64,000 nt of DNA from Dyella sedimenti. GTDB taxonomy: Bacteria > Pseudomonadota > Gammaproteobacteria > Xanthomonadales > Rhodanobacteraceae. Positions within the stretch are counted from its first letter, which is position 1; each line of letters begins with the position of its first letter. Position numbers and translations under genes: made by a program. Location: assembly GCF_022760995.1 (NCBI RefSeq), contig NZ_JAKWJO010000010.1, forward strand, positions 1-64,000, given 5' to 3'. Shown piece after piece: positions 36,914 through 48,962 of the stretch. Under the pieces are notes generated by a model, which was not told where the DNA came from, did not search any database, and was given only the letters and a program-made list of their open reading frames with translations.

Positions 36914-36958
36914 GGCAAGCCGGCTAGGGTGGGGCTTTCCGAACGCGAAGGGTCGCAG

Positions 36959-38311
36959 GTGCGAGCGTTGTCCACACGGCAGGTCTCCAAGCCGCACGGC
37001 CGGCCGGTCGCCGTGCTGGTCGCCGCGTGCCTGGCCGGTTGCGCCACCTACCAGGCCCGGCCGCTGCCTGAGCAGGCGAGTTCGGCGTCATCGCTGGCAC
37101 AGCTGCGCGGCTACGACGCTGCCGCGCAGCCGCTCGACATGCCCGCGGTCGAGCGCCTGGTGCTGCTCAACGACCCGGACCTGCGCAATGCGCGCTACCG
37201 CCGCCGGGTGGCGCAGGCGCAGCGCCGGCAGGACGGCGTTGTGGCCAATCCCGTGGTGGGCGGCAGCGTGGGCTATCTGTTGTCCGGTCCGGGCGACGCC
37301 ACCGCGTGGACGGCCTCGCTCGGCCAGGACATCACCTCGCTCGTCACGCTCAGGCCGCGCCGCGAGGCGGCCAGGAGCAGCGCCGACGCCATCGATGCCG
37401 GCCTGCTGTGGGAGTCGTGGCAGACACTGGGCAAGGCGCGGCTGCTGGTGATCGGGCTGGTCGAGGGCCAGCGCCTGATCGAGCTGCAGCAACAGGTGCT
37501 GCAACGGCTGGCGCAACGCGAGTCGCGCCTCGCCCGGGCCATCGCGGTGGGCGACGTCGATCGCGTGGCCGCCGCCCCGGATGTCGCCGCAGCGGCCGAG
37601 GCGCGCGCCGCGCTGGACGAGCTGCAGCGCCGCCAGCTCGACCAGCGGCAACAGCTCAACGCCTTGCTGGGGTTGCGGCCGGAAGCCGCCGTACCGCTGG
37701 CTTCGCCGGCGCCGCCCGAACTGGATGCGGCATCCATCCGCGAGCAGGCCGCCGGCATCGGCCGGCGCCGCCCCGACCTGGTGGCCTTGCAGCTGGGCTA
37801 CCAGGCACAGGAGGCGACGCTGCGGGCCGCCGTGCTGGCGCAGTTCCCGCCGCTGGCCATCGGCTACGACGCATCGCAGGACAACAGCCGCGTGCGCAAC
37901 GGCGGGCCCGCCGTATCCTTCGCCCTGCCCATCTTCGATCACCACCAGGGCAGCGTGGCCGTCGCCAGCGCCACCCGCGACCAGTTGCGCCATGAATACG
38001 CCGCGCGCCTGGCCGCCTCCCACGACGAGATCGATGCGCTGCTGGCGCAGTACCTGCAGTTGCAAGCGCAGCGGCAGGCCTTGTCGCCCGCGCTCGACGA
38101 CGCCGAGCGCACCGCGGCACGGGCCGCGCATGCCGCGCAATCGCGTCTGCTGGATTGGCGCGGCAGCGTCGATCTCGACGTGGCCGCGCTCAACCGGCGC
38201 ATGGCCCAGGTCGCCATCGAGCAAGCGATGCTCGAACGGCAGGCGGCCCTGGCGCTGCTGGTGGGCCGTGGCATGCCTACTTCCCTGGAACAGGATGTGA
38301 TCGCCCCATGA
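36959..38311 (+). CDS. TolC/CusC-type outer-membrane efflux lipoprotein
   Basis: Outer-membrane factor of 450 aa. A lipobox LAGC follows the signal region (AVLVAACLAGCATYQ), so it is predicted to be lipidated. The rest is long alpha-helical coiled coil with paired strands, as in the CusC/CzcC/OprM family (two repeats: QAQRRQ...LLGLRPE and GRRRPDL...ALPIFDHHQG). Start GTG 36959 was preferred to GTG 36929 because AAGGG lies 8 bp upstream of it. The order outer-membrane factor, adaptor, RND pump is the czcCBA/cusCBA order. Its stop overlaps the adaptor gene start (ATGA). Confidence 0.85.
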   Translation: MRALSTRQVSKPHGRPVAVLVAACLAGCATYQARPLPEQASSASSLAQLRGYDAAAQPLDMPAVERLVLLNDPDLRNARYRRRVAQAQRRQDGVVANPVVGGSVGYLLSGPGDATAWTASLGQDITSLVTLRPRREAARSSADAIDAGLLWESWQTLGKARLLVIGLVEGQRLIELQQQVLQRLAQRESRLARAIAVGDVDRVAAAPDVAAAAEARAALDELQRRQLDQRQQLNALLGLRPEAAVPLASPAPPELDAASIREQAAGIGRRRPDLVALQLGYQAQEATLRAAVLAQFPPLAIGYDASQDNSRVRNGGPAVSFALPIFDHHQGSVAVASATRDQLRHEYAARLAASHDEIDALLAQYLQLQAQRQALSPALDDAERTAARAAHAAQSRLLDWRGSVDLDVAALNRRMAQVAIEQAMLERQAALALLVGRGMPTSLEQDVIAP

Positions 38312-39354
38312 CGTGCCGTTCACCAAGGCTTGCCTGCATGCTCGCCCTGTGGGCGCTGGCGGCCTGCTCCCGTCAGGAAGCGCCGGAGGAGGGCGCGGTC
38401 AGCGCGGCCGTGGTGACGGTGCCGCCGAGGCAAGGCAGCCTGCCGGAGCGGGTGACCGCCTATGGCACCGCCGGCCCGTCCCAGGATGCACTCCGGGTGT
38501 TGAACGTGCAGGCGGCAGGGCATGTCGCGCACTGGGACGTTGCCGTGGGCGCCCCGGTAAGGCGTGGACAGCGGCTGCTCACCTTCGCGCTGGCGCCCTC
38601 GGCGGTCGCGGCCTATCAACAGGCGACCTCGGCGCTGGCGCTGGCCGTGGCGCAGCGCGCGCATGCGGCTGCGCTGTACGCGCAGCAACTGGCGACGCGC
38701 GACCAGCTGGACCAGGCCGGCAAGGTGCTGCGCGATGCGCAGTCCAATCTCGATGCGCTGGCGCGGCAGCAGGGACGCGCGGCGACGGTGGAGGTCGATG
38801 CGCCCTTCGATGGCAGCGTGGCGGCCATCGACGCCGCGCCGGGCGATGCGCTGGCGTCCGGTGCGCCGCTGCTGTCGGTGCAGCGCGGCGATGGCCTGGT
38901 GGTGACGGTGGGCATCGAGCGCGAGTCGGTGGCGCGCGTGATGGCCGGCGCCGAGGTCGAGCTGACGCCGCTGGATGCCGGTCCGGCGATGCGCGGCACC
39001 GTGCGGCGCGTGGCGCGCGTCCTCGATGCCCATACGCACCAGGTCGACGTGGAAGTGGTGCCGGATGGCGCGCCGCTGGCCGGCGAAGGCTTTCGCGCCG
39101 AGATCGTGGTGGGCCAGTGGCAGGGCTGGCTGCTGCCGCGCGATGCCGTGCAAGGCGACGAAGGCAGCCGCTACGTGTTCCAGCTGGCCGACGGCAAGGC
39201 GGTGCGCGTGCCGGTGCGCGTGCTGGGCGAGTCGGAGCGCGTGAGCGTGGCCGCCGGCGCGCTGGACAGCCATCGACCGCTGGTGACCGAGGGCGCCTCC
39301 CAGCTCGACGACGGCATGGCGGTGCGCGCCGCCGGGGCGGCAGACCGGCCATGA
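38308..39354 (+). CDS. RND periplasmic adaptor (membrane-fusion) lipoprotein
   Basis: A 348-aa HlyD/AcrA-family adaptor. The signal region contains a lipobox LAAC (LALWALAACSRQ), so a lipoprotein anchored in the inner membrane is expected. A lipoyl half-motif (LNVQAAGHVAHWDVAVGAPVRRGQRL), a short alpha hairpin (residues ~110-155) and the second half (VEVDAPFDGSVAAIDAAPGDAL) follow, then beta-barrel and membrane-proximal domains. The short hairpin suits an adaptor that docks a lipidated outer-membrane factor. It overlaps both neighbours by 4 bp (ATGA), implying stoichiometric synthesis. Confidence 0.88.
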   Translation: MTCRSPRLACMLALWALAACSRQEAPEEGAVSAAVVTVPPRQGSLPERVTAYGTAGPSQDALRVLNVQAAGHVAHWDVAVGAPVRRGQRLLTFALAPSAVAAYQQATSALALAVAQRAHAAALYAQQLATRDQLDQAGKVLRDAQSNLDALARQQGRAATVEVDAPFDGSVAAIDAAPGDALASGAPLLSVQRGDGLVVTVGIERESVARVMAGAEVELTPLDAGPAMRGTVRRVARVLDAHTHQVDVEVVPDGAPLAGEGFRAEIVVGQWQGWLLPRDAVQGDEGSRYVFQLADGKAVRVPVRVLGESERVSVAAGALDSHRPLVTEGASQLDDGMAVRAAGAADRP

Positions 39355-42300
39355 GCGGGGCGCCATTCCTGGCCCGGCACGCGCGTGCCATCGTGGTGGT
39401 GGCATTCGCCCTGGCGCTGGCGGGCCTGGCCGGCGCATGGGCCCTGCCGGTGGGATTGTTCCCGCACGTGTCGTTCCCGCGCGTGGTGGTGGACCTGGAT
39501 GCCGGCGACCGCCCCGCCGACCAGACCGCGCTGCTGCTGACGCGTCCGGTGGAGGAGGCCATCCGCACCGTGCCCGGCGTGGCCGGCCTGCGTTCGGAGA
39601 CGACGCGCGGCTCGGCGCAGGTCTCGGTCGATTTCGGCTGGGGCCGCGACATGACCGCCTCGACTCTGCTGGTGGAGGCGGCCATCGCGCGTGCGCTGCC
39701 CGGCCTGCCGCCGGGCACGGGCTACGGCGTGCGACGCATGGATCCCACGGTGTATCCGATCCTCTCCTATGCGTTGCAGTCCGATGGCTTGTCGCCCGTG
39801 GCGTTGCGCGACCTGGCGCAGTACCGGATCGTGCCGCTGCTGGCTTCGGTCGAAGGGCTGGCGCGAGTGGACGTGCAGGGCGGCGAAACCGCCGAGATCG
39901 AGGTGGAGGCCGACCCGCGCAAGCTCGCGCTGCATGGCCTGGGCATGGACGACCTGGCCGCCGCGCTGGCCGGCGCCAACCAGTTGCAGGCGGTGGGGCG
40001 GGTGCAGGATCGCAACCAGCTCTACCTGGTGGTGGCCGATCACTCGCTGCCGCGTATCGAGGCGATCCGCCAGGTGGTGGTGAAAAGCGATCCGCATGGC
40101 TGGGTGCGCGTAGGCGACGTGGCCAGCGTGCGCGAGGGTTACGTGCCGCAATGGACCAAGGTGAGCGAGGACGGCAGGCCCGCCGTGCTGTTCAACGTCT
40201 ACGAGCAGCCGGACGGCAATGCGGTGCAGGTCGCCAACCAGGTGCGCGACAGGCTCGCCGGATTCCGCCTGCCCAGGGGCGTCACGCTCAAGCCATGGTA
40301 CGACCAGAGCGAGCTGGTGGTGGCGTCCGCCCGCAGCGTGCGCGATGCGGTGCTGATCGGCCTGTTGCTGGCGGCAGCCGTGCTGCTGCTGTTCCTGCGC
40401 AGTCTGCGCGTCACCCTGGTCGCCGTGCTGGTGGTGCCGCTCACGCTGGCCGTGACGGTGCTGCTGTTGCAGGTGTCCGGCATGAGCTTCAACATCATGA
40501 CGCTCGGCGGCATCGCGGCGGCGGTGGGGCTGGTGATCGACGACGTGATCGTGATGGTGGAGCACGTAGCGCGCCGGGCCGGCGCCACGGCGACCGATGG
40601 CGCCGGCATGGTGCTGCCAGCCGCGCACGAGTTCCTGCCGCCGCTCGCCGGCTCCAGCCTGGCCACGCTGATCGTGTTCGTGCCGCTGGGCCTGCTCGGC
40701 GGGGTGACCGGCGCGTTCGCCAAGGCATTGTCGATCACCATGGCCGGCGCGCTGGCGGTGTCCTGGATGGCCACCGCCTGGCTGGTGCCGGTGCTGTTGC
40801 GGTGGCTGGTGGATTTCCGCCGCTGGCGCGATCCGGGCACGGATCGCGAGTGGTGGCTGCCGCGCCTGCATGCGCGTCTCTACGAGGGCCTGTCGCGGCG
40901 TCCGGTGTGGCTGCTGGCGGTGGCGATCCCGTTGCTGGCGCTCGGCGGCCTCGCCTATCGGCACGTATCCACTGGCTTCATGCCTTCCGTGGACGAGGGT
41001 GGCTTCGTGATGGACTACTACACCCGCCCTGGCACCTCGCTGCCGGAGACGTCGCGGCAGGTGGCCCAGGTGGAGGCGATTCTGCATGCCACGCCCGAGG
41101 TGGCGACTTTCTCGCGCCGTCTGGGCACCGGGCTGGGCGGCGATCTCGGCCAGTCCTACCACGGGGACTTCTTCGTGCGCCTGAAGCCCGGCCATGCGCG
41201 TTCCACGGAAGCGGTGATGAGCGAAGTGCGCGCACGGGTGGCACGCGAGGTGCCCGGCGTCGATGTCGAGCTGGCCCAGTTGATGGAGGACCTGATCGGC
41301 GATCTCACCGCCGTACCGCAGCCGATCGAAATCAAGTTGTACGCCGCCGATCCGCACGAGCTGGTGCCGCAGGCACGCAAGATCGCCAAGGCGCTGGCGG
41401 GCATCCCGGGCGTGGTGGACATCAAGGATGGCGTGCAGCTGGCCGGCGACGCGCTCGATGTGCGGGTCGATGCGGACAAGGCCATGTTCGAAGGCATGAC
41501 GGTCGAGGCGGTCACCCAGGCGGTAAGCCATGCGCTCACCGGCGTGGTGGCCACGCAGCTGCCGCAGGCCACCAAGAGCGTAGGCGTGCGCGTGCGCATG
41601 CCGGATGCGCAGCAGTGGCGCCTGCCCCAGCTGCTGGCCTTGCCGATCCGCGCGCCCGACGGCCACCTGTTCCCGCTCGGCCGCGTGGCGGCCGTCGCCG
41701 CCGAGAACGGCCAGCCGCAGATCTCGCGGGAGAACCTGCAGCCGATGGTGGCGGTGACCGCGCGCATCGAGGGGCGAGGCATGGGCGCGGCGGTGGCCGA
41801 CGTGACGAAGCTGCTGACGCGGCCCGGCATGCTGGGCGCGGACACGCGCTACGAACTGGGCGGCCTGTACCGGCAGCAGCAGATCGCCTTCCTGGGCCTG
41901 GGCAAGGTGTTCCTGCTCGCGCTGGCGGCCGAGTTCGTGCTGCTGCTGTTCCTGTATGGACGGCCGAAACTGGCCATGATCGTGATGGGGTGCTCGCTGT
42001 TCTCGGTGACGGCGGTATTCATCGCGCTGTGGGCATGCGGGGTGGATCTCAACATCACGGCCATGATGGGCATGACCATGATCATCGGCATGGGCACGGA
42101 GATGGCGATCTTCTACGTTTCCGACTATGTCGTGCTGGCGCGCGGCATGCCGGCGCGGGAAGCCTTGCGCGCGGCCAGCCGCGACCGCCTGCGGCCGATC
42201 ACCATGACCACGCTGGCCGCCATCCTGACCTTGCTGCCGCTGGCCCTGGCCATCGGTGCCGGCGCGGGCATCCAGCAGCCGCTGGCCATCGCCATCATCG

Positions 42301-42383
42301 CGGGCCTGGCCTTGCAGTATCCGCTGGTGTTGCTGGCGATGCCGATCCTGATCGGGGCCAGCCTGGGCCGTGCGCGCGGGTGA
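39351..42383 (+). CDS. RND efflux transporter permease (inner-membrane pump)
   Basis: A 1010-aa pump with twelve membrane segments and two large periplasmic loops. The start MSGAPFLARHARAIVVVAFALAL leads into TM1, and the porter domains begin FPHVSFPRVVVDLDAGDRP. The proton-relay aspartates lie in TM4 (AAAVGLVIDDVIVMVEH). The C-terminal half repeats the fold (GMGTEMAIFYVSDYV in TM10). Subclass is unclear: gene order suggests heavy-metal type, but the TM4 motif with consecutive Asp is more like hydrophobe/amphiphile pumps. Together with the two upstream genes it forms a complete tripartite system, and with the kinase and regulator a five-gene unit. Confidence 0.92.
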   Translation: MSGAPFLARHARAIVVVAFALALAGLAGAWALPVGLFPHVSFPRVVVDLDAGDRPADQTALLLTRPVEEAIRTVPGVAGLRSETTRGSAQVSVDFGWGRDMTASTLLVEAAIARALPGLPPGTGYGVRRMDPTVYPILSYALQSDGLSPVALRDLAQYRIVPLLASVEGLARVDVQGGETAEIEVEADPRKLALHGLGMDDLAAALAGANQLQAVGRVQDRNQLYLVVADHSLPRIEAIRQVVVKSDPHGWVRVGDVASVREGYVPQWTKVSEDGRPAVLFNVYEQPDGNAVQVANQVRDRLAGFRLPRGVTLKPWYDQSELVVASARSVRDAVLIGLLLAAAVLLLFLRSLRVTLVAVLVVPLTLAVTVLLLQVSGMSFNIMTLGGIAAAVGLVIDDVIVMVEHVARRAGATATDGAGMVLPAAHEFLPPLAGSSLATLIVFVPLGLLGGVTGAFAKALSITMAGALAVSWMATAWLVPVLLRWLVDFRRWRDPGTDREWWLPRLHARLYEGLSRRPVWLLAVAIPLLALGGLAYRHVSTGFMPSVDEGGFVMDYYTRPGTSLPETSRQVAQVEAILHATPEVATFSRRLGTGLGGDLGQSYHGDFFVRLKPGHARSTEAVMSEVRARVAREVPGVDVELAQLMEDLIGDLTAVPQPIEIKLYAADPHELVPQARKIAKALAGIPGVVDIKDGVQLAGDALDVRVDADKAMFEGMTVEAVTQAVSHALTGVVATQLPQATKSVGVRVRMPDAQQWRLPQLLALPIRAPDGHLFPLGRVAAVAAENGQPQISRENLQPMVAVTARIEGRGMGAAVADVTKLLTRPGMLGADTRYELGGLYRQQQIAFLGLGKVFLLALAAEFVLLLFLYGRPKLAMIVMGCSLFSVTAVFIALWACGVDLNITAMMGMTMIIGMGTEMAIFYVSDYVVLARGMPAREALRAASRDRLRPITMTTLAAILTLLPLALAIGAGAGIQQPLAIAIIAGLALQYPLVLLAMPILIGASLGRARG

Positions 42384-42421
42384 GGCACCGGATTGCGCCG
42401 AATGGCCCGATGCCGGCGGCT

Positions 42422-44281
42422 TCAGTGCGTGGATTCGGAATAGGTGGAGAGCGCGGCCACGCGTTCCGGCGCCTGGTCATGGCCGGCATGGGTCGCCGCG
42501 CCGGCGGGCTTGCCGTCGGCGTCCTCGTAGACGACGCGGTTGCGGCCGTCGCGCTTGGCCCGGTACAGCGCGTTGTCGGCATCGATCACCAGCTGGCGCA
42601 GCTCGTAGCCGCTGCGGTCGGTGGAGGCGATGCCGAAGCTGGCCGAGATGACCACATGCCGCGTCTCGCCCCATAGCGGCGTGGCGGCGATGGCCTGGCG
42701 GATGCGCTCCGCGCGCTGCAGCGCCAGTGCGGCGGTGCAATCGGGCAGCAGGATGGCGAATTCCTCGCCGCCGAGGCGGCCGAAGATGTCCAGGCGGTGC
42801 AGGTGCTGCTGGCAGGCCGCAACCGCGCGCTTGAGCACGAGGTCGCCGGTGGCGTGGCCGTGGGTGTCGTTGACGTCCTTGAAGTGGTCCAGGTCGAACA
42901 GCAGCAGGCAAGCGGGCCGGGCGGCCTTGGCCGCCGCGCGCAGGGCCAGTTCGGCCTCGTCCACGAAATGCTGCCGGCTATGGATGCCGGTGAGGCTGTC
43001 GCGCGTGGCCAGCCGCTTGAAGCGCAGCTGCGAACGCTTGATGCGCAGCAGCCAGAAGGCGATGGAGGCGAGCACGGTCAGCAGCAGGGCGATGTAGAGG
43101 CGGCTGGTTTCCATCGCCTTGCGGTCGAGCTGTCGTTGCAGCTGCAGGATCTGGTTTTGGCGATTGAGCGTGTCGACCTGGTTCTTGTTGGCCTGTACCT
43201 GCTGCTTGATGGTTTCGTAGGCCAGGGCGCCAGCCGTGACATCGTTGAGGTATCCCTTGTCCGCGGCCATGTATTTTTCATGGTAGGCCAGCGCTTCGTT
43301 GTCATGGCCGAGCCGGCTCTCGATCCGGTACAGCAATCCATAAGCCCGGCTCAAGGGCTCGCTGTAGGCGTTGTCTTCCTTTCCTTCAATGGTGGCGAGG
43401 GCGAACTTGTGCGCCTTGGCCAGGTTGCCCTGGCTGAAATAGCCCTCGGCCAGCAGAACGTTGAAGTACTGCATGAGAGGTAGGTAGTTGTAACCCTGCA
43501 CTTCCGCGTAGTGCTCGTCCAGCAAGCGGATGGCCTCGGAGGCGTGCCCCTTTTGCAGGTAGAACGCCGCCATGTCGCTGCGCACGGCGTTTGCGAAGAG
43601 CGAATCGTTGCCGTCCGTGCAGAGGGCGACGCCTTGCTGGAACTGGGCGGGCGTCAACTGGGCATTGCTGCGAATAAGCGCCTGCAGCCTGTAGCGTATG
43701 GCATGGCAGGCGTTTTTATCCTCAGGCACGTCCTGCAGCATCTGGTCGGCGTATTCCACCGCCTGCTCGTAGCGATGGGAGAGGATCAGGAATTGTGCCG
43801 CCTCGCCCATGGCGGCATAGCGCGCACCCTTGTCGGTTACCTCGGGAAGCAGCTCGGTAAGGCGGTTCAGCTGGACGAAGGCGTCCTCATAGCGATGCGC
43901 AAAGCCGAACAGATTGACGATCGTCGCCATGGCGCGCAGGCGCAGCGCCGGAACGGGCGCCTGGTCGGCGATGGTGCGCAGGGCGGCAATGGCTTGCGTC
44001 TCGTTTCCCTCGAAGGCCGCCTGCCAGGCATCGAGATAGCGCAGCGTCCATTGCTCGTCCAGGGGAAGGTTGTCCTCCAGTTGGTGCAGCTGCGTGAGAA
44101 CCTTCAGGAATTCGTCGTGATCCGACGTCTTGATGTTGAAGGCGTGCTGCAGCAGTTGCTGCGGCGAATCGGCGGTGGGCATGGCCTGCACCGCCATGCC
44201 CACGCAAAAGCCCGTGAGAGCGATGATGCTCCCCAGGAATGTCCGACTCGTTTTGCCAAGCCGGAACACGAAGTGGCTCAA
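42422..44281 (-). CDS. Membrane TPR-GGDEF diguanylate cyclase coupled to the borosin precursor
   Basis: A 619-aa protein. An N-terminal signal/anchor (residues ~12-33) is followed by a tetratricopeptide-like helical region (about 40-380) that would lie in the periplasm, a TM helix (395-414, LYIALLLTVLASIAFWLLRI), and a GGDEF domain. Active-site features are intact: Asp463 in LLFDLDHFKDVND and GGEEF at 504-508. The inhibitory I-site normally reads RxxD; here it is HRLD (495-498), so feedback inhibition by c-di-GMP may be lost. The start is TTG 44281, overlapping the precursor stop (TTGA). The protein should make c-di-GMP in response to something sensed by the TPR part, possibly the modified peptide. 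Confidence 0.82.
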   Translation of the reverse strand: MSHFVFRLGKTSRTFLGSIIALTGFCVGMAVQAMPTADSPQQLLQHAFNIKTSDHDEFLKVLTQLHQLEDNLPLDEQWTLRYLDAWQAAFEGNETQAIAALRTIADQAPVPALRLRAMATIVNLFGFAHRYEDAFVQLNRLTELLPEVTDKGARYAAMGEAAQFLILSHRYEQAVEYADQMLQDVPEDKNACHAIRYRLQALIRSNAQLTPAQFQQGVALCTDGNDSLFANAVRSDMAAFYLQKGHASEAIRLLDEHYAEVQGYNYLPLMQYFNVLLAEGYFSQGNLAKAHKFALATIEGKEDNAYSEPLSRAYGLLYRIESRLGHDNEALAYHEKYMAADKGYLNDVTAGALAYETIKQQVQANKNQVDTLNRQNQILQLQRQLDRKAMETSRLYIALLLTVLASIAFWLLRIKRSQLRFKRLATRDSLTGIHSRQHFVDEAELALRAAAKAARPACLLLFDLDHFKDVNDTHGHATGDLVLKRAVAACQQHLHRLDIFGRLGGEEFAILLPDCTAALALQRAERIRQAIAATPLWGETRHVVISASFGIASTDRSGYELRQLVIDADNALYRAKRDGRNRVVYEDADGKPAGAATHAGHDQAPERVAALSTYSESTH

Positions 44282-44586
44282 GCCGGGGAAGTGAGTGCGT
44301 AGCCGCCGACGCGGGGCGCGGCGAGTGCGTCCTTTTCTTCCTCGTCGTCTTCTTCGCCCTCGCCCTCTTCTTCCTCATCCTCGCGGCCGGGATTTTCGAG
44401 GGTATGGAACATGGGCTTGAGGTCCAGCAGCGCGTAGAGATCGGCCGTGCCGCGGCCAATGATCGCGGCCTCCGCCACCGCATCGACCTGCGATGCCTCC
44501 AGCGCCTGCGCGATCTCTTCTTGCGACGCGTGACGCAGCTGCGCGTTCGCGCCCATTCGTTCCAGGAATTCGATAACGCTCGACAT
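44278..44586 (-). CDS. Split-borosin precursor-like peptide with acidic tract
   Basis: A 102-aa protein. Residues 1-55 (MSSVIEFLERMGANAQL, then a run of short helices to ADLYALLDL) closely follow the pattern of the borosin binding domain of split precursors such as Shewanella SonA, which starts with an 'FxxxLGxDAQL' helix. It is followed by KPMFHTLENPG (57-67), the position of the methylated core in SonA-type precursors. Then comes a tract of almost only Glu/Asp (69-84) and a C-terminal tail APRVGGYALTSPA. AGGGGAA precedes ATG 44586. The alpha-N-methyltransferase gene lies 113 bp upstream. No cysteine is present, so lanthipeptide-type leaders are unlikely. Confidence 0.72.
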   Translation of the reverse strand: MSSVIEFLERMGANAQLRHASQEEIAQALEASQVDAVAEAAIIGRGTADLYALLDLKPMFHTLENPGREDEEEEGEGEEDDEEEKDALAAPRVGGYALTSPA

Positions 44587-44638
44587 GGCTTGTTCCCCTG
44601 ATGGTCTGAAAAGACGACATCCCCCCGACTTGCCGTTC

Positions 44639-44668
44639 CCCTCTCCCCGGGGGAGTGCTGGGAGAAGG
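44639..44668. repeat. Hairpin between methyltransferase and precursor genes
   Basis: CCCTCTCCC (44639-44647) and GGGAGAAGG (44660-44668) pair with one mismatch; inside is a smaller CTCCCC/GGGGAG palindrome. It belongs to the CCCTCTCCC repeat family. In the minus-strand transcript it lies between the enzyme and its substrate gene and could set their relative amounts by 3'-end protection or partial termination, which is inference. Confidence 0.45.
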
Positions 44669-44699
44669 CGATCATAACCCTGTTTTCAAGGATATATAT

Positions 44700-45503
44700 C
44701 TATGCCGGAACCGCCTGGTCCAGCGCCGCCAGCCGTGCCAGCACCTCGTCATCGGGCTGGAGCGCCCGCGCGGGCGGTATGGCCAGGGTGTCGGCGCCAT
44801 TGAGATCGATCTCAGGCAGCCGGGACAGCGGCAGGCGTTCCATGCGCGGCGCCTGCACGGGCAGCATGGCGGCCCGGTACACGATGGCCTCGTGGTCCGG
44901 CGGGTAGTCGCGCGCCAGCACGTCCAGCAGCACCCGCCGCTGGGCCGCGCCGGTGGCGAAGCGGTGGCCCGTGTGCTCGCCGGCCAGGCCCACCTGCCAC
45001 AGGATCAGCCAGGCGCTGGGATCGACGGTGCGCCTGTAGAGCATGAACTGGGTGGTATCGAAATGCTGGCAGCCGACACTGCCCGGATCGATGCCGAGAT
45101 CGGCATACAGGCAATCCTCGGAGGAAATGCCCGGCTCCATGTGGGCGCGGTAGCCCTCCTCGCGCGCCAGCTTGATCGCCCGGTGCGGCGCCCAGGCGAA
45201 CACGCCGGGATGGCCATAGAACACCGCGCATACGCGCCTGCCGGCCCGCACCTCGGCGAGGATGGCCTCCACCATCTCGCGGTAGGTCTGCGTGCGCCGC
45301 TTGCCCTCGGCATAAAGCGGCTGCAGGCTGCGCACGTCAGCATGCATCTCCTTGAGCCACAGCTCCACGATGCCGTCGGAGACCACGGCGAACACCACCT
45401 CGGCAGTCTGGATATGGCTGCGCGCCAGCGGCGTGATGTGCGAGCCCAGCGTGATGCCGATACCGACGCAGGCCAGGCTTCCGTTCGGAGGGGACGTGCT
45501 CAA
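44700..45503 (-). CDS. Borosin-type peptide alpha-N-methyltransferase (tetrapyrrole-methylase fold)
   Basis: A 267-aa SAM-dependent enzyme of the tetrapyrrole-methylase superfamily. It starts GSLACVGIGITLG (SAM site) and has YGHPGVFAW (96-104), MEPGISSEDCLYADLGIDPG and LPVQAPRMERLPL. These blocks match SonM/OphMA-type backbone N-methyltransferases rather than CobA or CysG. Tyr64, Arg70, Tyr74 and Tyr96 keep the spacing of the OphMA catalytic residues Tyr66, Arg72, Tyr76 and Tyr98, offset by two. It should methylate backbone amides of the precursor encoded next door. The start is TTG 45503, chosen because AAGGAG lies 9 nt upstream and conservation begins just after it. Confidence 0.85.
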   Translation of the reverse strand: MSTSPPNGSLACVGIGITLGSHITPLARSHIQTAEVVFAVVSDGIVELWLKEMHADVRSLQPLYAEGKRRTQTYREMVEAILAEVRAGRRVCAVFYGHPGVFAWAPHRAIKLAREEGYRAHMEPGISSEDCLYADLGIDPGSVGCQHFDTTQFMLYRRTVDPSAWLILWQVGLAGEHTGHRFATGAAQRRVLLDVLARDYPPDHEAIVYRAAMLPVQAPRMERLPLSRLPEIDLNGADTLAIPPARALQPDDEVLARLAALDQAVPA

Positions 45504-45706
45504 AGCCTTGTGCTCCTTGATGGCGGCGGGAAGCCTGTGGCGAGCCCTGCCCATACCCCAGCATAAGCACAGCGTGAAGGCATCCGCCACCATGTCGGGT
45601 GGCGTCCGCGCCGGCGATGGCCATGCGGCGGCGTGGCGCGGGCCCGGTGCCGTGTTCAGCGGCATTCGCCTACGATGCCGATGCCACTCGCAAGGAGGAG
45701 CGATCG

Positions 45707-46123
45707 ATGAAACGCTGTCCGTCGTCATGGATGCTGGCCGCAGTGATGGCCGCGGCCGCGTCGTTGTCCACCGGGGTGTTGGCGGAGGAGGCCGGTCCGG
45801 CGCCGTCCTATCGCTCTCCCGTGCTGGGTGCCCCGCAGGGAATGGGCGAGGTGGCCTTGCCCGGGGCGGTCCCGGCCGGGACGCGTCTGCCGGCCTTGCC
45901 CGCCGGACCGACGCCGCTGGTCCATGCATCGCGGGACGCACTGGGCTTCATGGCGAAGGCGGGCTTTGCCCTGGCCGCCGAAAAGACCGGCACCCACGCG
46001 CCGGTGGCGCCGCCGTCCTACCCGCCGTACCGGCCCAGCCTGCCCATGCCCGAGCCTGCCGCGAAGGTGAATTGCCAGCCCGCCGGCGCGATCCTGCTGC
46101 CGGCGATGTGCCAGCAGCGCTGA
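45707..46123 (+). CDS. Small exported Ala/Pro-rich protein, unknown function
   Basis: A 138-aa protein with a strong ribosome-binding site (AAGGAGGAG) and a clear signal peptide (MKRCPSSWMLAAVMAAAASLSTGVLAEE). The mature part is low-complexity, rich in Pro and Ala (APVAPPSYPPYRPSLPMP), with two cysteines near the end (VNCQPAG, PAMCQQR) that could form a disulfide. I recognise no family. It is divergent from the borosin methyltransferase with 203 bp between the starts. Its TGA stop is immediately followed by the GAGCCTGTTCACG end of a repeat element. Confidence 0.6.
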   Translation: MKRCPSSWMLAAVMAAAASLSTGVLAEEAGPAPSYRSPVLGAPQGMGEVALPGAVPAGTRLPALPAGPTPLVHASRDALGFMAKAGFALAAEKTGTHAPVAPPSYPPYRPSLPMPEPAAKVNCQPAGAILLPAMCQQR

Positions 46124-46200
46124 GAGCCTGTTCACGATCTCCGCGTGGCCCGCGCCGGGCGCTGCCTGCGCGCGGGACAAGAAAGAGCGAAGAACAAGGG
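46124..46200. repeat. Partial copy of the 27.5-kb fold-back element
   Basis: GAGCCTGTTCACGATCTCC is followed by CGTGGCCCGCGCCGGG and, after a gap, GGACAAGAAAGAGCGA. This matches the reverse complement of the right end of the 27510-27775 element (…CCCGTGGCCCGCGCCGGGAG… GGACAAGGAAGAGCGA). Only one end is present, so this is a degenerate or solo copy. It directly follows a TGA stop codon. Confidence 0.6.
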
Positions 46201-46263
46201 CACCCGTGACGCCTCCGGGCCGACGTTCTAGAGTGGCGGCCTGTCTTTCTGGAGAGCGCCGAC

Positions 46264-47121
46264 ATGCGATTCTTGCGCTTTGAGCGGGAGGGCCGGCCTG
46301 GCCTGGCCCTTCACACCGATGGCGGCTGGCGCGCCTGCGCGGTGGACGAGACCTGGTTCTCCGACGACATCGGCGCCTTGGCCGCGCTGGGTGAAAGCGA
46401 GCGGGAGCGCGTCTACGGCGAACTGCGCACGGGCAACCCGATCGATCCCGGCACCGTCACGGTGCTGCCGCCCTGCCCGCATCCGGGCAAGATCATCTGC
46501 CTGGGACTGAATTACCGCGACCACGCGCACGAGTTCGACTTCAAGCCGCCGGACTATCCCACGCTGTTCGCGCGCTTCGCTTCCAGCCTGGTCGGCCATG
46601 GGCAACCGCTGGTGCGGCCGCGCGTGTCCGACACGTTCGACTACGAGGGCGAACTGGCGGTGATCCTGGGCCGTGGCGGACGGCATATCGCCGAAGCGGA
46701 GGCGCTCGGCCACGTGTTCGGCTACACCGTGTTCAACGACGGCTCGATCCGCGACTACCAGCTGCGCACGCCGCAATGGACGGTGGGCAAGAACTTCGAC
46801 GGCACCGGCGCGTTCGGTCCCTGGGTGGTGACGGCCGACGAGCTGCCGCCGGGCGCCACGGGCCTGATGCTGGAGACGCGCCTCAACGGCCAGGTGATGC
46901 AGCGGGCCTCCACCAGCGACATGATCTTCGGCGTGGCGCGGACCATCGCGATCGTGAGCGAGGCGCTCACCCTGGCCGCCGGCGACGTGATCGTGATGGG
47001 CACGCCCTCGGGCGTGGGCTACGCGCGCCGGCCGCCGGTCTACATGAAGGCCGGCGACGTTTGCGAGGTGGAGATCGAACGCATCGGCCTGTTGCGCAAC
47101 GTCGTCGCGGACGAAGCCTGA
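46264..47121 (+). CDS. Fumarylacetoacetate hydrolase (FAH)-family enzyme
   Basis: A 285-aa FAH-superfamily hydrolase. The metal-binding acidic residues sit in DYEGELAVILGR; KIICLGLNYRDHAHE is the domain opening; GKNFDGTGAFGPW and MGTPSGVGYARRPP are the active-site loops. An N-terminal beta domain of about 70 residues is included (MRFLRFEREGRPGLALHTDGGW). Members act on 2-oxo/4-oxo acids or as ureidoglycolate lyase, fumarylpyruvate hydrolase or oxaloacetate-type enzymes; the substrate cannot be told here. GGAGAGCGCCGAC precedes ATG 46264. It is convergent with the S53 peptidase gene, with an inverted repeat between them. Confidence 0.88.
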   Translation: MRFLRFEREGRPGLALHTDGGWRACAVDETWFSDDIGALAALGESERERVYGELRTGNPIDPGTVTVLPPCPHPGKIICLGLNYRDHAHEFDFKPPDYPTLFARFASSLVGHGQPLVRPRVSDTFDYEGELAVILGRGGRHIAEAEALGHVFGYTVFNDGSIRDYQLRTPQWTVGKNFDGTGAFGPWVVTADELPPGATGLMLETRLNGQVMQRASTSDMIFGVARTIAIVSEALTLAAGDVIVMGTPSGVGYARRPPVYMKAGDVCEVEIERIGLLRNVVADEA

Positions 47122-47141
47122 AGCCGGTGCCTTCGGCATTT

Positions 47142-47220
47142 CTGTGGGAGCGCACCCTGTGCGCGACAACCGGCGGAGCGGTGAGATGCATGCCGCCGTC
47201 GCGCACAGGGTGCGCTCCCA
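47142..47220. repeat. Inverted pair of REP-like 'TGTGGGAGCGCACC' repeats
   Basis: The left copy (47142-47167) starts CTGTGGGAGCGCACCCTGTG and ends GCGCGAC; the right copy (47198-47220) is its exact inverse for 23 bp. A 30-bp spacer lies between. The pair sits between the convergent FAH and S53 genes and can form a long hairpin on either strand, so it may serve as a bidirectional terminator. A second pair is at 59852-59975. Confidence 0.7.
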
Positions 47221-47236
47221 TAAGGTCGTCGTTGAC

Positions 47237-48778
47237 TCAGTTCGTGGGTTTCATCGCCGCCAGCGCCGTCAACAGCGCCTGCCCGTTGGGACTGCCCAGG
47301 CCCGTGCAGGCATCCCAGCCCTTGGCCGCCTTGAACTTGCCGTTGTCGCCCGAGGTGATGTCGCGGAAGGCCGCCTCGCCGATGCCGTAGAGCGCCGCGT
47401 GCGGATCGCCCAGCCCCTGTCCCAGCTGCTGGTTGCAGCGGGCGATCAGCGCCGCCCATAGCGGCGCCACCGCGCTGGTGCCGCCGATCACCTCGTCCTG
47501 TCCGTCCACGCGTACCTGGTAGCCGGTGGTGGGGTCGGCGTTGCCGGCCACGTCGGGCACGCCGCGCCCCGCGTAGCCGTTGGCGCCGGCGGGCACCTTG
47601 GACGATTGCTGCCAGTCCGGCAGCGCGAAGCTGGCGCTGACGCCGCCGCCGGTGGCGCCTTCGTCGCTGCTCAGCTCGTTCCACACGGTCTCGCCCTGGA
47701 TGCTGCCGCCGCTGGCGACGAGCCGGGTGCCGCCGCAGGCCAGCGCATAGGGGCTGGAGGCGGGATAGTCCACGTGGGGCTGGTTGTCGCTCTCGCCATC
47801 GGTATAGCCGCTGTCGCCGCTGGCCACGGTGACGGTGACGCCCAGCGCCACGGCGTCCTGCAGGGCGCTCTGCATCGCCGCCAGCGACGAGGCGCTCCAG
47901 CTATCCTCCGGGCCACCCCAGCTGATCGAGATCACCGACGGCTGGCGGGTCGTATCGTGCGCGGCCTGCGAGATCGCCTCGTAGAAGCCCTGGTCGGTAT
48001 TGGGGGCGAAATACACCGCGATGGCGGCGCCGGGCGCGAGCGCGCCGACCACTTCCACGTCCAGCATTACCTCGCCGTCGGCGTCGCCGCCGGGTTGGCT
48101 GCTGCCGCCCGCCACCGACACCACGCTGACACTGGGCACCTTGTCGATGCCCAGCGACTGGAGGTACTGGGTGAAATCGCTCTGGGTGAAGCCGCCGCCC
48201 AGTTCGATCACCGCCACGGTCTGCCCGCTGCCGTCGGTGCCATCGGGGAAGCCGTACAGCTGGCCCAGCTGCACGGGCGTGTAGGTCGTGCTGGGCTTGG
48301 CGGCTGGGCGGCGGAAGTGCGGCCGCGCCACCGGCCGCTTGTCCAGTCCCAGCACGGCGATCACGGCGGGGGAAATCTCGGGCGGCAGCGAGGGCGGCTG
48401 GTGGCAGCCCAGCATCACCGGGCCGCCGTCCGCGAACTGGTAGCGGCCCAATTGCACGCCGAAGGCCTGCTGCAACGCCTGCGGCGTGCCGCGCAGGTGC
48501 AGCGCGCGGCGATGCAGTTCGCAGCCGGTCTCGCTGAGCCCGTGCTGGCGAGCGTAGCCGCGCAGCCGTTCCGCATCGGCAGGATCGGCGCCCCAGCGCG
48601 CGCCGAAGTCCTCGCGCCGCAGGGCAGGCGCATGCGGCCACGCGGCGGGCGAAAGGTGATTGCCACGGCGGCGCAGCACCACGGTGACGTCGATCGGCTC
48701 GGTGCCTTCATGCGGGCCCAGGTAGCGGGCTTCGGCGGCCAACGGCCAGTGGTGACGGCGGGCGGTGGACGTACTCAT
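47237..48778 (-). CDS. S53-family (sedolisin/kumamolisin-like) serine-carboxyl peptidase
   Basis: A 513-aa peptidase. An N-terminal pro-domain (residues ~15-165: EPIDVTVVLRRRG, RGTPQALQQAFGVQL) is followed by the catalytic domain (YTPVQLGQLYGFPDG). The Glu/Asp pair lies in GEVMLDVEVVGALAP, the oxyanion Asp in VASGDSGYTD, and the nucleophile Ser in GGTSAVAPLWAAL; the calcium site is DITSGDNGKF…GWDACTGLG. It should be active at acid pH. No signal peptide is seen, as in kumamolisin itself. Start 48778 has GAGGAG 8 bp upstream. It is divergent from hemB. Confidence 0.93.
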   Translation of the reverse strand: MSTSTARRHHWPLAAEARYLGPHEGTEPIDVTVVLRRRGNHLSPAAWPHAPALRREDFGARWGADPADAERLRGYARQHGLSETGCELHRRALHLRGTPQALQQAFGVQLGRYQFADGGPVMLGCHQPPSLPPEISPAVIAVLGLDKRPVARPHFRRPAAKPSTTYTPVQLGQLYGFPDGTDGSGQTVAVIELGGGFTQSDFTQYLQSLGIDKVPSVSVVSVAGGSSQPGGDADGEVMLDVEVVGALAPGAAIAVYFAPNTDQGFYEAISQAAHDTTRQPSVISISWGGPEDSWSASSLAAMQSALQDAVALGVTVTVASGDSGYTDGESDNQPHVDYPASSPYALACGGTRLVASGGSIQGETVWNELSSDEGATGGGVSASFALPDWQQSSKVPAGANGYAGRGVPDVAGNADPTTGYQVRVDGQDEVIGGTSAVAPLWAALIARCNQQLGQGLGDPHAALYGIGEAAFRDITSGDNGKFKAAKGWDACTGLGSPNGQALLTALAAMKPTN

Positions 48779-48962
48779 GGGACCGTGCTCCTCGATGGAC
48801 GTGAAATAGAGAGACTGCACCGGCGAATGTGGCCGTGGGGTATTCGCCGGTCGCCCCGTTCACGCATGGTGCGGTTTGCCCGTCTCACCGGACGCGTCAA
48901 CCTGCCATCGCGGGCGGCCTGGGCGCGTAGGGGTAAAATGACCGGATGTCTCCCCCGAGTAG

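Follow-up and report, generated by a model that had tools for sequence, protein, structure and literature searches.

A SonM-type split-borosin pair in Dyella sedimenti encoded with a conserved TPR-GGDEF sensor, a possible receptor for the modified peptide

In the fungal borosins OphMA and dbOphMA the methylating enzyme and the core peptide are parts of one protein, whereas in the type IV split borosin SonM-SonA of Shewanella oneidensis (PMC8429565; PDB ID 7ltc and others) the enzyme and the precursor are separate proteins. A locus of the second kind lies at positions 42422–45503 of the window analyzed here, a stretch of 64,000 nucleotides from Dyella sedimenti. As in SonM-SonA, the enzyme is separate from its precursor and keeps the catalytic residues, and the precursor is likely to have an N-terminal binding domain; the enzyme is 48% identical to SonM. 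It is also homologous to OphMA and dbOphMA (E 2.6e-50 to 2.8e-46), from which the locus differs in that enzyme and core are separate proteins. In contrast to SonA, the precursor is longer (102 versus about 70 residues) and continues after its likely core with an acidic run and a tail, and compared with SonM-SonA the side-clamp loop of the enzyme is three residues shorter and the core sequence is different. The preliminary description of this range correctly paired the enzyme with the peptide, but it named no core and passed over a third gene within the range, which encodes a conserved, receptor-like GGDEF protein (Table 1). The same gene order is found at the locus with a 99% identical copy of SonM (L178), where a SonA-like peptide and then a 594-residue TPR-GGDEF sensor of the same layout are next in line. 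The enzyme and precursor are of a known kind, and the link to GGDEF is at least partly known, as a GGDEF symbol is explained in the legend of Figure 1 of PMC11395268, a drawing of borosin types; a term search of the main text of PMC8429565 returned no GGDEF. The best explanation of the locus is a three-gene split-borosin operon of methyltransferase, precursor, and sensor.

The enzyme is a SonM-type borosin α-N-methyltransferase, judged from its sequence. The motifs YGHPGVF, MEPGISSEDCLYADLGIDPG, and LPVQAPRMERLPL are present as first described, and the domain has no fused core. In a phmmer search of the PDB, residues 8–259 matched SonM (7ltc) with an E value of 1.2e-77 and the fungal borosins matched with E 1.8e-43 to 2.6e-50; precorrin-2 methylase was the last match, with E 0.0026. 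Tyr-64, Arg-70, Tyr-74, and Tyr-96 align with Tyr-58, Arg-67, Tyr-71, and Tyr-93 of SonM, to which roles as catalytic residues are assigned in PMC8429565. The preliminary description was right that these residues are kept but wrong about their spacing, as Tyr-64 and Arg-70 are 6 positions apart and the SonM equivalents 9, corresponding to the shorter side-clamp loop. The Tyr/Arg/Tyr/Tyr set is found in 127 of 129 collected methylase copies, and the spacing of 6 in 66 of the 72 copies from the family and 40 of the 57 from elsewhere; these loci come mostly from the top of the match list and are not a random sample, and two rows were dropped before counting (L043, which is the same place as L008, and L006, whose sensor gene is cut by the end of its contig). 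A tree of 23 rows places the methylase among SonM and its relatives, an outcome in favor of the preliminary description, which had regarded a grouping with siroheme or cobalamin methylases as decisive against its reading. The CysG-like and RsmI-like proteins of the same genome fall outside the SonM group on very long branches with moderate support (84/85). Cobalamin enzymes were instead judged by PDB and NCBIfam scores, and the NCBIfam cobalamin models score far below cut-off.

The 102-residue reading frame of the precursor is where it had been placed. As a single sequence it matches nothing in Pfam and does not find SonA in the PDB, and all of its NCBIfam matches are far below cut-off. An 18-row precursor profile ranks SonA first in the PDB, with profile positions 1–53 on SonA 1–53, although the score is weak (E 0.0037). 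Two of its rows, the L188 and L196 precursors of a second type, come from genomes of the SonM family; when they are removed SonA is still the top match at the same positions, again with a weak score (E 0.025). Adding SonA-like rows gives E 1.6e-20 for SonA, a value that is partly circular. The AlphaFold model, of low confidence (mean predicted local distance difference test (pLDDT) of 56), has helices at residues 4–13, 16–19, 22–31, 36–45, and 47–56. The precursor gene sits between homologous methylase and sensor genes, in the same place as the SonA-like peptide of L178. Because of the family profiles, helped by this gene order, the N terminus is likely to be the SonA-type borosin-binding domain that had been suggested for it, an assignment established less firmly than the enzyme family or the conserved trio of genes. 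The SonM match, the catalytic residues, the tree, and the family profiles together support the split-borosin enzyme-precursor pair of the preliminary description.

In an alignment with SonA-like peptides, residues 58–67 of the precursor (PMFHTLENPG) fall on the methylated segment of SonA, in which Leu-63 and Ile-65 carry the modification (PMC8429565). The corresponding region in many relatives is a short hydrophobic or PQITQ-like stretch, followed by a proline and then an acidic run. On the basis of this alignment and of the pattern in the relatives, the core likely lies directly after the binding domain, at about residues 58–67, rather than in the far C-terminal tail, and this is where the precursor may be methylated. 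Of 69 trimmed family precursors, 66 carry a net negative charge beyond residue 66; 74 were found, five could not be trimmed by pattern, and the 69 include L050, a fragment of 33 residues. A multi-core-like tail was observed at L078 (G036), where the precursor lies 566 nucleotides after the methylase and its tail has four tandem DKDEEEIRxAAxxGG repeats, the last of which is imperfect.

The sensor gene start overlaps the precursor stop by 4 nucleotides. From its hydrophobic N terminus the encoded protein continues through a domain of helical repeats and a second hydrophobic segment beginning at residue 395 to a GGDEF domain (PF00990, E 2.2e-40), with the TPR domain of ~355 residues predicted outside and the GGDEF domain inside. 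The signature GGEEF at residues 504–508 is invariant in seven of seven aligned sequences, so the protein has both the GGDEF domain and the GG(D/E)EF active-site motif of a diguanylate cyclase. Cys-192 and Cys-221 of the ectodomain are kept in all 101 rows with an intact or degenerate GGDEF (100 distinct proteins), which would suit a periplasmic location. The model of the sensor has a mean pLDDT of 78. The Foldseek list for it was mostly filled by GGDEF domains, and in a second look with VIA-align residues 37–348 superimposed on a Rap-pheromone complex of phage phi3T (Z 23.6, root mean square deviation (rmsd) 4.4, 301 residues) and a similar range on RapF-peptide (Z 22.9, rmsd 4.7, 311 residues) and NprR-NprX (Z 22.0, rmsd 5.3, 297 residues). 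In a sequence comparison, a profile of 31 ectodomain rows ranks RapF first in the PDB (E 4.9e-10). The predicted TPR superhelix is thus similar in shape to the RRNPP receptors Rap and NprR (Z 22–24) but, unlike them, predicted to be periplasmic. RRNPP receptors are located in the cytoplasm and are not known to be joined to GGDEF or kinase modules of the membrane. The ectodomain appears RRNPP-like in the predicted model, resembling the Rap and NprR pheromone receptors, and may bind a peptide.

Table 1. Genes of the split-borosin locus and the parts assigned to their products (window positions)
Feature	Position	Strand	Remarks
Borosin α-N-methyltransferase (SonM-type)	44700..45503	-	267 aa; TTG start, GGAG nine nucleotides upstream
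Split-borosin precursor peptide	44278..44586	-	102 aa; ATG start, AGGGGA seven nucleotides upstream
Precursor residues 1-56, likely borosin-binding domain	44419..44586	-	Five predicted helices, low confidence; family profiles
Precursor residues 58-67 (PMFHTLENPG), likely core	44386..44415	-	Inferred from alignment with SonA segment
Precursor residues 69-85, acidic run after likely core	44332..44382	-	Sequence
Precursor residues 86-102, variable C-terminal tail	44281..44331	-	Comparison of family precursors
Membrane TPR-GGDEF sensor	42422..44281	-	619 aa; TTG start
Sensor residues 36-394, predicted periplasmic TPR superhelix (ectodomain)	43100..44176	-	Model; contains Cys192, Cys221
Sensor residues 395-411, second hydrophobic segment (predicted transmembrane helix)	43049..43099	-	Hydrophobicity
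Sensor residues 422-586, GGDEF diguanylate cyclase domain, GGEEF signature	42524..43018	-	Domain match

Methylase and ectodomain occur together across genomes. Among 197 genomes of the family, 126 have both (methylase E ≤ 1e-20, ectodomain-only profile E ≤ 1e-10) and 68 have neither, whereas two have only the methylase (G098 and G109) and one only the ectodomain (G180), giving a Fisher p value of 2e-49 that is not corrected for kinship. This genome-level co-occurrence is independent of the choice of loci. The searches scored limited first-look candidates (up to 10 per family genome and five per genome of a class sample), so that absences are soft. The methylase has relatives in 128 of the 197 family genomes but is rare in the class sample, with nine positive genomes among 369, two of these nine from the family; the ectodomain was matched in three genomes of this sample, all of them methylase-positive. 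The D. sedimenti genome itself has 17 GGDEF matches with only two ectodomains, one behind each of its two borosin methylases. The second of these methylase-precursor-sensor sets (G000:C16:437262-438038, L042) has a different core region, PMKVNHDVHAPGHEE, and a sensor of 590 residues. At the level of loci, a GGDEF protein starts within 1.6 kb downstream of 66 of the 72 family methylase copies by rule, or 67 when L063 is added by eye, its GGDEF frame beginning upstream of the methylase end. At L053, L056, and L076 a single methylase is followed by more than one precursor-sensor pair.

Outside the family the ectodomain is kept at some loci while the output domain is exchanged. The 57 methylase copies from other families, a set in which the families of G760 and G544 are overrepresented, are accompanied by a GGDEF sensor in 30 cases, by a degenerate GGDEF motif in five (L182, L183, L185, L195, and L210, four of which come from the SonM family of genomes), and by a hybrid histidine kinase in seven (six distinct proteins). 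In L099, L206, L209, L215, L216, and L217 the kinase stands in place of the diguanylate cyclase within the same two-segment TPR layout. The kinase-type ectodomains match the GGDEF-type profile with E 1e-17 to 3e-30, with no match among shuffled decoys, and hhalign gives a probability of 99.8 for the two types. The second hydrophobic segment is present in all 108 sensor rows, which represent 106 proteins because L213 and L206 each have two tandem methylases with a single sensor between them to share. Distance correlations over 56 loci, each with a GGDEF sensor and a single detected precursor, show that divergence of the core follows that of the ectodomain (partial r 0.27 with methylase and GGDEF controlled, 0.20 when the binding domain is controlled as well) and is unrelated to that of the methylase (partial r 0.00), which gives weak support to a pairing of peptide and receptor.

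In the mechanism that we propose, the SonM-type enzyme would bind the N-terminal helical domain of the precursor and methylate backbone amides just after it, in a short segment at about residues 58–67. The product, or the modified precursor, would leave the cytoplasm and serve as the ligand of the RRNPP-like TPR ectodomain, which from outside the inner membrane would control the cytoplasmic GGDEF domain, so that an N-methylated peptide would be read out as cyclic di-GMP (c-di-GMP). We hold this model as a whole tentatively, as plausible but somewhat short of probable, its receptor half being deduced from the predicted fold and the gene linkage.

Several observations weigh against this proposal. 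No transporter, protease, or secretion signal is found within the trio, which leaves export and cutting of the peptide unaccounted for and makes transport the main gap of the model. TPR superhelices are much alike, so the likeness to pheromone receptors may be generic: the degron receptor APPBP2 aligns comparably to the sensor (Z 23.1, rmsd 3.9, 315 residues, VIA-align), GPSM2 (1.2e-9) and designed TPRs stand near RapF in the ranking by the 31-row profile, and a narrower seven-row Dyella-Marinicella ectodomain profile gave nothing significant, with only an arbitrium receptor at 0.086. The conserved cysteine pair is absent from all seven kinase-type rows, and a hydrophobic N-terminal segment 350–410 residues before the second one is found in only 88 of the 108 rows (87 of 106 distinct sensors). 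For the precursor, Foldseek with the low-confidence model returned no fold match at E ≤ 0.001, and in the profile without the L188 and L196 rows the unrelated interleukin-27 alpha, matched on the acidic run, is close behind SonA (0.046 versus 0.025). Linkage is also incomplete. Six of the nine methylase-positive class-sample genomes have no ectodomain match among the five candidates scored per genome, although one of the six, G544, carries the kinase form (L099), and 15 of the 57 copies outside the family have no sensor or another gene downstream. No sensor was found downstream of five of the 72 family copies (L071, L074 second copy, L128, L131, and L137); the contig of L131 ends 485 nucleotides after the methylase, GGDEF fragments are seen by eye downstream of the L074 second copy, and the precursors detected at three of these loci (L071, L074 second copy, and L137) all have no acidic tail. 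In the distance correlations the core is also related to GGDEF (partial r 0.18). The binding domain is as closely related to the ectodomain (0.46) as to the methylase (0.40), and the acidic tail follows GGDEF (0.36) with no relation to the ectodomain (0.01). Gene adjacency could produce part of all these correlations.

The strongest competing explanation, unlikely in our view, is that the product is a conventional secreted metabolite and that the role of the sensor is confined to controlling, through c-di-GMP, how this product is made or responded to, with the TPR domain sensing something else. Diguanylate cyclases often regulate neighboring functions, and TPR domains bind many ligands, in keeping with the matches of GPSM2 and designed TPRs to the ectodomain profile. 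A plain regulator, however, would not be expected to be so exclusive to the methylase or to be repeated together with the precursor, and the ectodomain is kept even where the output becomes a kinase or loses the GGDEF motif. Nor was a c-di-GMP riboswitch found at 41000–47500, where an Rfam search gave three microRNA matches only, all under gathering scores. It is less probable still, and we consider it improbable, that the modified precursor stays in the cytoplasm as a protein switch, its acidic tail touching the GGDEF or kinase part of the sensor while the TPR domain reads another cue. Such a switch would agree with a trio that has no secretion signal or exporter, with the prevalence of negatively charged tails in the family, and with a tail divergence that follows GGDEF instead of the ectodomain; it is at odds with the correlation of core and ectodomain and with the SonA-like precursors of L178, L108, and others, which have no acidic tail and yet are accompanied by the sensor. 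The remaining alternative, in which the enzyme is a tetrapyrrole methylase and the small acidic protein next to it has no connection with it, is scarcely credible, for although Pfam and NCBIfam name only tetrapyrrole-methylase-type families for the enzyme, the gap between its SonM and precorrin-2 methylase scores, the catalytic residues, the placement in the tree, and the first rank of SonA with the precursor profiles had already disfavored it.

The genes around the trio were compared in 12 loci within the flanks fetched. A gene for an S53 peptidase (sedolisin-like by eye) lies at 47237–48820 on the (-) strand of the window. S53-like peptidase and HemB-like genes were considered as tailoring genes and rejected, being kept only in the same-genus loci tested; their presence in six of six such loci (L005, L007–L010, and L044) and none of six others (L011, L042, L045, L047, L108, and L178) looks like inherited synteny, and the S53 peptidase is probably unrelated to the borosin trio. 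Genes recognized by eye as an outer-membrane factor, an adaptor, and an RND pump occupy 36929–42383 on the (+) strand, and the pump gene is near the trio in six of six same-genus loci tested. Further arrangements were seen among the collected methylases. A GNAT-like acetyltransferase gene, identified by eye, stands beside the methylase or between methylase and precursor in L049, L050, L106, L198, L199, and L202, where a second modification is possible. In L101 and L103 the gene after a distant borosin-like methylase is, by eye, that of an MFS-like transporter, and neither a precursor nor a sensor was found there; in L110 (G583) a borosin-like methylase domain lies within an open frame of 1,174 residues, possibly a fused form.

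In the literature searched, which left out key borosin surveys and was judged in part by titles and the opening of abstracts, we found no RRNPP-like ectodomain, output swap, or receptor proposal for these systems, and the novelty of the sensor link is accordingly not established. Extended to the lineage, the proposed model would make its split borosins, SonM-SonA included, peptide signals, each with an adjacent periplasmic RRNPP-like TPR receptor and interchangeable outputs (c-di-GMP or phosphorelay), with precursor-receptor pairs that duplicate and diverge behind one methylase; we regard this wider view as possible but doubtful. A receptor-like partner hints that borosin-type modified peptides may be signals. 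Its presence in 126 of the 128 methylase-positive family genomes points to a direct and testable function for the peptide. If the proposal is true, sensing of peptide pheromones by TPR domains would extend to the Gram-negative periplasm, and backbone N-methylation would gain a biological role.

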